62,466 nucleotides of DNA. It comes from Chloroflexota bacterium (GTDB lineage Bacteria > Chloroflexota > UBA6077 > JACCZL01). The stretch covers positions 1 through 62,466 of the forward strand of contig JADZEM010000136.1 of assembly GCA_020850535.1 (NCBI GenBank). Direction: 5' to 3'. The notes beneath the pieces were generated by a model. The model was not told where the DNA came from. It ran no database searches and saw only the letters and a list, made by a program, of their open reading frames with translations. The position numbers and the translations under genes were made by a program. Below, one piece after another: positions 44,585 to 47,211 of the stretch (the first letter of the stretch is position 1; every line of letters begins with the position of its first letter).

Positions 44585-44620
44585 CGAGACGCGGGACAGT
44601 GGCCGTTGCCGTCAGCAGGC

Positions 44621-44689
44621 GACGGGGTGAGGTACACCCGCGACGGGGTGAGGTACGCCCGCGACGGGGTGAGGTACGCCCGCGACGGC
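44621..44689. repeat. 21-bp tandem repeat, three copies
   Basis: GACGGGGTGAGGTACGCCCG plus C occurs at 44621-44641 (one variant base), 44642-44662 and 44663-44683, with six bases of a fourth copy. It fills the space between the convergent secreted-protein and histidine-kinase genes. No role is evident. Confidence 0.85.
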
Positions 44690-44714
44690 CTCCGTGAGGC
44701 CGGCTCGGCCGCCG

Positions 44715-46262
44715 TCAGGCCGGCCTGGCCGCCGGCAGCGCTCGCTCCGGCTGCTGGCTCACGCCGAGCAGCCCTTCGTGCTGGAGACGCTCCAGCAGCT
44801 GCTCGAGCTGGCGGCCTCGGAACGGCTTCGCCAGCACGGCGTGGACGCCGCGCTGACGGGCATCCGCCTCATCGATCTCCGCGCCCCAGCCGGTCGCCAG
44901 CACAAACACAAGCTCAGGCTGGAGCGACGAGAGCGCCTCGGCCAGCTCCCAGCCGTTGATGCCGTCGCCCATGCCAAGATCGGAGATCACGAGATCGAAC
45001 TGGCGGTTCCGTGCGACCTCCAGCGCTGCCTCTCCAGACCGCGCCGTGACCACCTGATGCCCGTGTGGCCTCAGGAGCGCTGCAACCAGCTGCACCAGCG
45101 GCTGCTCGTCGTCCACGGCCAGGACGCGCAGCGCCGCGAGCGGTCGGCGCGCCAGCACCGGGAGGGCGGGACGCTCAGGGTCGTCGTCGGCGGGCAGGTG
45201 GATGGTGAACACCGTGCCCTCGCCCACTGCCGAGGCGACAGAAAGACGCCCGCTGTGATGCTCGACGATGCTCTGCACCATCGCCAGCCCGAGGCCGGTC
45301 CCGCGCTCGCCCTTGGTGGTGAAGAACGGCTCGAAGATGCGGGTTTGCAGGTCGGCCGGCATCCCGATGCCACTGTCAGCCACCCGAATCTCAACCGTAT
45401 CGGTGACCCGCGCAGCGCCAAGCGAGATCGTGCCGCCTGTTGGCAGCGCGTCCAGGGCGTTCAGCACAAGGTTGAGCACGGCTTCCCGCAACGACGACGA
45501 TGCACCCCGCACGTGGACGTCGCCCGCGGCCTCGACGGTCAACGTGACCGGCCGACCTTCACACTGCGTCAGATCTCGCCAGCGCGGCGCGGTCAGCTTG
45601 GCGACGTCCGAGAGCAGTTGCGCCACGTCGATCCGCTCCGGCTCGCCGGCTGCTCCGCCCCGGGCGAACGTCAGCAGCCGGCGGACGGTCGCGCCGCCGT
45701 CCTGAGCCGCCCGTGACACGAGATGGAGGTGGTCGACCACCGCGACCAGGTCCGGAACCTCGCGGTCGATCTCGCGGGTTGCCAGCTCGCAGTAGCCGCT
45801 GATGATGCCGAGCGACTGGTTCAGATCGTGCGCCACGCCGCCGGCCAGCTGGCCCAGGACGCGCAGCTTCTCGGCCTGGGTCTCGTCAAGCTGCCGCTTG
45901 CGGTCCTCCGAGACCTTCGCCGAGCTGCAGAGCGCGACCACCTTCGGGACGAGCGTGGGCAACGCAACCGCCGTTGCGAGGGAGGCTGCCAGCGTGATCC
46001 CCTGGATCATCACCGCCAGCCCGTGAACCGGCAGCTGCAGCGCCAGCAGCATGTGCATGACATGGGTGCCGCCGCACGCCACGATGAAGAGCCCGAACGC
46101 CGGCACGATCCAGGTGTGAGGAAGCTGTGGCCGCAGCCGCGCGTACAGCACCGCGAGGGTCACCGAGATCGCGAAGTACGCGAGCGCGATCACCCCGTCC
46201 GCGGCCAGATGCAGCCAGAAGAGGCCCGCCTCCGAGTCAAACGTGGCGTCTGAGAGTACCAA
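44715..46262 (-). CDS. Hybrid histidine kinase with ethylene-receptor-like sensor domain
   Basis: A 515-residue protein. The N-terminus has three membrane segments. The first (LAADGVIALAYFAISVTLAV) and second (AFGLFIVACGGTHVMHMLLA) match the ethylene-binding domain of plant ETR1. Asp22, Tyr29, Ile32, Ile60, Cys63 and His67 correspond to ETR1 Asp25, Tyr32, Ile35, Ile62, Cys65 and His69, the last two being the Cu(I) ligands. Pro36 is Ser33 here. No GAF domain follows; a coiled coil leads into the kinase with His145 (GGVAHDLNQSLG), N box LNLVLNALDA, ADSGIGMP, FEPFFTTK and GTGLGLA. A C-terminal receiver domain has LVISDLGMGD and LAKPF. Likely output: phosphorelay to an unlinked partner. Confidence 0.85.
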   Translation of the reverse strand: MVLSDATFDSEAGLFWLHLAADGVIALAYFAISVTLAVLYARLRPQLPHTWIVPAFGLFIVACGGTHVMHMLLALQLPVHGLAVMIQGITLAASLATAVALPTLVPKVVALCSSAKVSEDRKRQLDETQAEKLRVLGQLAGGVAHDLNQSLGIISGYCELATREIDREVPDLVAVVDHLHLVSRAAQDGGATVRRLLTFARGGAAGEPERIDVAQLLSDVAKLTAPRWRDLTQCEGRPVTLTVEAAGDVHVRGASSSLREAVLNLVLNALDALPTGGTISLGAARVTDTVEIRVADSGIGMPADLQTRIFEPFFTTKGERGTGLGLAMVQSIVEHHSGRLSVASAVGEGTVFTIHLPADDDPERPALPVLARRPLAALRVLAVDDEQPLVQLVAALLRPHGHQVVTARSGEAALEVARNRQFDLVISDLGMGDGINGWELAEALSSLQPELVFVLATGWGAEIDEADARQRGVHAVLAKPFRGRQLEQLLERLQHEGLLGVSQQPERALPAARPA

Positions 46263-46623: not shown

Positions 46624-47211
46624 TCAGGGCAGCCGGTTCGCGGCCTCCAGCAACAACTGCTGGAGCTCGGGCCGGTTCAGCAGCGGCAGCAACCCGCGCG
46701 CGCAGGCCCGCACCGAGCCTTCGCGCCCCTCGTTGCGGCGCATGTGCCCCTCCAGGCACGCGCCCATCGTGGTGCGGACGGCTGCAAGCTCGTCTGGCTC
46801 CAGCAGGGCGGACAGCTCCTCGGTCCAGCCGGTGGTCCGACTCATGATCCAGGCGCGGTCTTCCGGCGTCAGCGTGTAGAGGACGGTGCCGGGCTGAACG
46901 GTGAACGCGTCCAGCACCTCGCCGCAGACGGCGTCTGCCTGCTGGCGCGTCAGGTCATGCATGTAGGCGGCCCCCAGGCAGACGCCCACGGCGTTGACGG
47001 CCAGCTTCGCTTCCTGCGGAGCCTTGCCGCCCTGGAGCAAGATGCCGTAGAGGGTCGCCATCTCCTGGCGAATCGACGCCTCTTCGGCCGACGTCAGTGG
47101 ACGCTCTTCGGCGGTGACCTGCGCGGACGCGACGCCGAGCGTCGCCATCATCGTCAGCATGAGCGTCAGCATGACACGGAACCAGACAGTGGTGCGGGTG
47201 GGCCGACACAT
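46624..47211 (-). CDS. Secreted protein of unknown function
   Basis: A 195-residue protein with an N-terminal signal peptide (VMLTLMLTMMATLGVASA, cleavage probably after ASA). The mature part is alpha-helical and charged, with Cys residues in AVGVCLGAAYM, ADAVCGEVL, TMGACLEGH and VRACARGLL. Four Cys in an exported protein suggest two disulfides. GAGGGCAGAGCC precedes the ATG at 47211. I do not recognise the family. It is divergent from the MFS transporter gene. Confidence 0.6.
   Translation of the reverse strand: MCRPTRTTVWFRVMLTLMLTMMATLGVASAQVTAEERPLTSAEEASIRQEMATLYGILLQGGKAPQEAKLAVNAVGVCLGAAYMHDLTRQQADAVCGEVLDAFTVQPGTVLYTLTPEDRAWIMSRTTGWTEELSALLEPDELAAVRTTMGACLEGHMRRNEGREGSVRACARGLLPLLNRPELQQLLLEAANRLP

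Follow-up and report, generated by a model that had tools for sequence, protein, structure and literature searches.

The window analysed here is a stretch of 62,466 nucleotides from a Chloroflexota bacterium (assembly GCA_020850535.1, contig JADZEM010000136.1), and its minus strand carries, from 46262 down to 44715, a real open reading frame for a hybrid histidine kinase, the features of which are collected in Table 1. The sensor was matched to ETR1_N with E=1.5e-21 (76.9 bits against a gathering cut-off of 27), far beyond chance, and a genome-wide profile search gave 81 bits for this domain at the coordinates of the gene; the initial annotation of an ethylene-receptor-like histidine kinase is thereby borne out. 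The assignment as a hybrid histidine kinase follows from HisKA (just below its cut-off, with His145 in place), HATPase_c, a receiver and the catalytic residues, and the H, N, G1, F and G2 boxes and the receiver motif are all intact.

Table 1. Features of the kinase gene (window positions; sensor residues assigned by alignment to ETR1 numbering)
Feature	Position	Strand	Details
Whole gene, ETR1_N sensor - HisKA - HATPase_c - receiver hybrid kinase	44715..46262	-	515 aa, TTG start
ETR1_N (ethylene-binding-domain-like) sensor, residues 14-111	45930..46223	-	Pfam PF25487, 76.9 bits
Helix 1, residues 11-43	46134..46232	-	AlphaFold2 model
Asp22 in helix 1, alongside Tyr29 and Ile32	46197-46199	-	ETR1 Asp25 equivalent
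Ser33 in helix 1	46164-46166	-	ETR1 Pro36 equivalent
Helix 2, residues 52-74, with Ile60, Cys63 and His67	46041..46109	-	AlphaFold2 model
Cys63, putative Cu(I) ligand	46074-46076	-	Cys65 in 142/142 relatives
His67, putative Cu(I) ligand	46062-46064	-	His69 in 141/142 relatives
Helix 3, residues 81-139, continuing into signalling helix	45846..46022	-	AlphaFold2 model
Gln87 in helix 3, ETR1 Lys91 position	46002-46004	-	Lys in 132/142 relatives
HisKA dimerisation/phospho-acceptor domain, residues 136-203	45654..45857	-	25.5 bits, just under 26.9 cut-off
Phospho-acceptor His145, in HDLNQ	45828-45830	-	H box motif
HATPase_c catalytic domain, residues 255-359	45186..45500	-	Pfam; N, G1, F, G2 boxes
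Receiver domain (Response_reg), residues 380-490	44793..45125	-	Pfam, 68.7 bits
Receiver phospho-acceptor Asp428	44979-44981	-	Receiver motif

A Pfam search found no GAF domain in the protein and placed a receiver at its C-terminus, both as originally described. As distinctive traits these two do not stand, since the clade in which the protein falls (below) varies widely: some members lack any additional domain, others carry GAF or up to two PAS, the kinases have either HisKA or HisKA_2, and receivers number from zero to three; a C-terminal receiver also ends ETR1 itself (PMC6586836). With architectures so varied, the sensor acts like a mobile input module, and a protein lacking GAF is nothing unusual. 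The neighbours checked encode an orphan 195-aa protein, an MFS transporter, an XRE-cupin regulator, an MCP and a Calx-beta protein, and no HPt, response regulator or ethylene-related gene was found among them. The 195-aa frame (46624-47211, minus strand) lies upstream on the same strand, 361 bases from the kinase; its start resembles a signal peptide, and Pfam gave no match for it. About three head-to-tail copies of a 21-base repeat, GTCGCGGGCGTACCTCACCCC, are found directly past the kinase stop codon (window 44605-44720).

Residue numbering follows a sequence that we take to be that of Arabidopsis ETR1, which fits D25, P36, C65, H69 and K91 as named in the literature. Those residue names are from PMC6586836 and PMC11819568. 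Asp22, Tyr29, Ile32, Ile60, Cys63 and His67 correspond to ETR1 Asp25, Tyr32, Ile35, Ile62, Cys65 and His69, so that six of the seven residues of a strict ethylene-binding-domain test are present, and Pro36 is replaced by Ser33, at the position where the substitution had been reported. In the alignment, Asp22 to Ser33 equal the ETR1 number minus 3 and Ile60 to His67 the ETR1 number minus 2; the spacing, initially described as exactly that of ETR1, holds within each of these two helices, but the TM1-TM2 loop is one residue longer (30 residues rather than 29 from position 36 to position 65). An AlphaFold2 model of residues 1-140 (mean pLDDT: 83.7) contains three helices, the third of which extends into the kinase, and a Foldseek search with the sensor model against solved structures returned no match at E≤0.001. 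ETR1 holds one Cu(I) per monomer at Cys65/His69, a site that modelling places inside the dimer interface (PMC6586836). Seven residues of ETR1, Pro36 among them, are described as essential to ethylene binding (PMC6586836, PMC11819568), and Pro36Leu gives the ethylene-insensitive Never-ripe tomato (PMC7285140, PMC6727826). In the literature searched, we found neither a tested Pro36Ser variant nor binding data for any Ser36 protein.

Relatives were gathered from a scan of named genomes and from phylum samples, to which plasmid records added only five. In the counted set of 139 distinct bacterial domains that keep Asp25, Tyr32, Cys65 and His69, position 36 held Pro 107 times, Ser 26 times and Thr 3 times, with single cases of Ala, Gly and Phe; the overall Ser36 fraction is biased upward because three Ser36 proteins served as seeds for the named-genome scan. 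Ile35 and Ile62 were almost invariant, and column entropy reached 0.94 bit at position 36 compared with at most 0.31 at the remaining six residues. For the phylum samples, domains with Asp or Asn at position 25 were counted, with only the best-scoring loci for Cyanobacteriota; residues other than Pro at position 36 were seen in 2/32 domains from Cyanobacteriota, 5/9 from Acidobacteriota, 3/12 from Verrucomicrobiota and 3/13 from Pseudomonadota. All four Chloroflexota proteins had Ser or Thr. Whether Ser is usual here in bacterial relatives had been left as a question by the initial annotation; it is common across a whole branch and not peculiar to this genome.

Ser and Thr are able to bend transmembrane helices via backbone hydrogen bonds. 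Since 29 of the 32 replacements are Ser or Thr, the pattern fits a helix-bending role for residue 36, which we infer for the window protein as well. The longer TM1-TM2 linker was present in 18/29 Ser/Thr36 domains versus 4/107 Pro36 domains, a difference of which relatedness explains much. At the Asp25 position, Asn occurs naturally in proteins of the Cyanobacteriota sample (L155, L164, L168, L171 and L173) and in a Bacteroidota record (L085); an Asn-type variant there is said to lower the ethylene affinity of ETR1 about 100-fold (PMC13012798).

The initial annotation missed two departures that are rarer than Ser36, as well as the additional linker residue. Directly ahead of helix 1, 132 of the 139 bacterial domains have a His-x-x-Cys motif (PHGHCYLW) and five others only the Cys, leaving only the window protein and L004, both from Chloroflexota, with no N-terminal Cys; a search of the three minus-strand frames upstream for an overlooked N-terminal extension with the motif found none. 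The motif might serve dimerisation or copper capture. The other rare departure is the replacement of Lys91 by Gln87, which removes the residue associated with coupling. Lys91 is described as a hydrogen-bond partner of Asp25 with a role in output (PMC11819568) and as part of a salt bridge (PMC13012798). Over 27 near-invariant columns the window protein departs at 7, the maximum of 76 sequences (median: 1), and all 7 fall in the 17 non-core columns (chance: 0.022, calculated post hoc), while all ten core columns (D22, Y29, I32, F56, F59, I60, C63, G64, T66 and H67) are kept. Judged by its aligned residues, it is the most divergent member sampled, with the copper/ethylene core untouched. Because that core is intact despite the 7 departures, it looks to have been kept under selection, the remainder having drifted or been re-tuned.

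Phylogenetic placement was performed with a first tree built without column 36 and without the linker. The window protein fell in a clade of 21 (SH-aLRT: 97), none of which has Pro36 (19 Ser, 1 Thr, 1 Phe); the clade spans Acidobacteriota, Verrucomicrobiota, Chloroflexota and Cyanobacteriota, and most members have the longer loop. A more careful tree (98 rows) recovered the same 21 with an SH-aLRT of 97 but an ultrafast bootstrap of 43, and a placement of the window protein outside the other 20 was not rejected (AU p: 0.384), which leaves its precise position uncertain; it forms a long branch. The initial annotation had named a phylogeny outside ethylene-binding domains as one outcome that would refute it, and both the tree and Pfam instead support family membership. 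We regard the window protein as a real, divergent ETR1_N member that probably belongs to a Ser36 branch, of which we found no description in the literature searched. The hypothesis that Ser/Thr36 arose only once was disfavoured (AU p: 0.022). Separate cases occur in Cyanobacteriota (L041, L042/L043, L051/L063 and L062) and in the Pseudomonadota sample (L140, L142 and L147).

Besides that of the window gene, no ETR1_N domain was found in the 7.65 Mb genome. Above the curated cut-off, the domain was detected in 3/400 Chloroflexota genomes, 1/29 genomes of the window's class, 13/247 Acidobacteriota, 14/195 Verrucomicrobiota, 18/249 Pseudomonadota and 28/79 Cyanobacteriota; its occurrence in Chloroflexota is rare and scattered. 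Apart from the window's own phylum, these phylum names were taken from the titles of the genome records around which the samples were centred. Weak matches in other Chloroflexota (L005-L007) were dropped, as their translations read as potassium-transport KdpA-like proteins. A genome of the same order (G008) carries a distant ETR1_N-like domain (L002, frame at 1252, plus strand; 25.7 bits, below the cut-off) fused to PAS and a kinase; by eye, this domain keeps Tyr32, Ile35, Cys65 and His69, with Asn in place of Asp25 and Ala in place of Pro36.

The kinase-receiver half shares 49-53% identity with hybrid kinases from the window's own genome and class, of which two were checked and have GAF or GAF-PAS inputs, whereas the kinases at loci of other ETR1_N proteins reach at most 37% identity to it. 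This difference is most simply read as the grafting, within this lineage, of an ETR1_N sensor onto a native kinase.

Among characterised systems, Arabidopsis ETR1 shares with the window protein the three-helix sensor, the six residues, the histidine kinase and the C-terminal receiver; the window protein differs in Ser33 for Pro36, Gln87 for Lys91, the loop longer by one residue, and the lack of an N-terminal Cys pair and of GAF. AzoEtr1 of Azospirillum brasilense is likewise a bacterial ethylene-binding-domain kinase without GAF, and it binds ethylene; unlike the window protein, it has all seven residues, Lys98 (ETR1 K91), PAS and a linked separate response regulator (PMC11819568). SynEtr1 (slr1212, Synechocystis) and GeiEtr1/2 (Geitlerinema) have a sensor of the same family, with phosphorelay output for SynEtr1, but carry an N-terminal Cys and all seven residues (stated for GeiEtr1/2), and SynEtr1 also senses light (PMC6682694). 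The Ser36 relatives L009, L010, L008, L059 and L003/L033, from Terriglobia, Verrucomicrobiota and Ktedonobacterales, keep the six residues and mostly the +1 linker; unlike the window protein they retain Lys91 and HxxC, and their kinase parts and accessory domains differ.

We lean towards a membrane hybrid histidine kinase that receives its input through a three-helix copper(I) sensor homologous to the ETR1 ethylene-binding domain. Homology, residue conservation, clade, architecture and intact kinase motifs are observed; copper, ligand, dimer, direction of response and output are what we infer by analogy. Each subunit of a dimer would most likely hold one Cu(I) between Cys63 and His67, near Asp22, and ethylene, or a similarly small pi-bonding ligand, would bind the copper and shift helix 3. 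This helix, continuous with the kinase, could then alter His145 autophosphorylation, after which the phosphate would move to Asp428 and onward to an unlinked HPt or response regulator. Ser33 may replace Pro36 as the bending residue of helix 1, together with the longer TM1-TM2 loop. Ethylene inhibits the ETR1 kinase, with indirect evidence of the same for SynEtr1 (PMC11819568). The copper-sensor explanation is supported by the kept core columns, the three helices with the third running into the kinase, the intact catalytic motifs and a Ser36 branch that keeps the same six binding residues. Against it stand the change of Lys91 to Gln, the missing N-terminal Cys and the lack of a linked output or ethylene gene nearby. 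The reported requirement for Pro36 in ETR1 and the phenotype of Never-ripe tomato with Pro36Leu count against ethylene as the ligand. Having six of the strict set of seven residues lowers the claim to an ethylene receptor without lowering the claim that the protein works like one. The reading given at the outset, a minimal ethylene sensor or a sensor for another small ligand, is partly supported: Pfam and the tree back family membership, with ethylene as a candidate ligand.

A Cu(I) sensor of the same fold for another ligand (for example another alkene or alkyne, CO or copper availability itself), in which Ser36, the longer loop and Gln87 mark a changed ligand or coupling, we consider rather unlikely. 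It draws on the co-occurrence of Ser/Thr36 with the +1 linker, as if the site had been re-tuned, on the report of Pro36 as essential for ethylene in ETR1 (PMC6586836) and on the additional change at Lys91; however, all other ethylene/copper residues are unchanged in the branch, and the presence of Ser36 amid close cyanobacterial Pro36 relatives (L062 beside L053) suggests that the change is tolerated. The wider proposal that the Ser36/+1-linker branch, across Acidobacteriota, Verrucomicrobiota, Chloroflexota and some Cyanobacteriota, forms a distinct class of copper gas sensor whose ligand or affinity differs from that of canonical ethylene receptors, with Gln87 and the absent HxxC in the window protein coupling ligand to kinase unlike in ETR1, is offered as a tentative possibility.

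Decay or repurposing, with a sensor that binds neither copper nor ligand and a kinase that is constitutive or otherwise driven, would account for the record number of departures, the missing HxxC and the long branch, but it appears improbable given that none of the ten core columns is touched, that the reading frame is uninterrupted and that both kinase and receiver retain their motifs. That the gene is foreign to the genome, on a contaminating contig, is very improbable: GC and GC3 agree with the neighbouring genes and the kinase-receiver half resembles kinases elsewhere in the genome and class more closely than those at other ETR1_N loci, although the assembly consists of 227 contigs with 4.58% estimated contamination and a single genome of the class has the domain over the cut-off.

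These proteins add Acidobacteriota, Verrucomicrobiota and Chloroflexota to the phyla with candidate ethylene sensors, for which a review lists proteobacteria and cyanobacteria (PMC7700396) and a recent paper mentions further phyla only in general (PMC11819568). Pro36 is absent from about a fifth of the bacterial homologues sampled whose copper core is otherwise intact, in a sample enriched for Ser36 by its seeding; these homologues fall in several separate lineages and mostly have Ser or Thr. Either the requirement for Pro36 belongs to the plant and cyanobacterial context only, or Ser36 proteins sense something else, and the Ser36 branch offers a natural test of whether Pro36 is required for ethylene binding.
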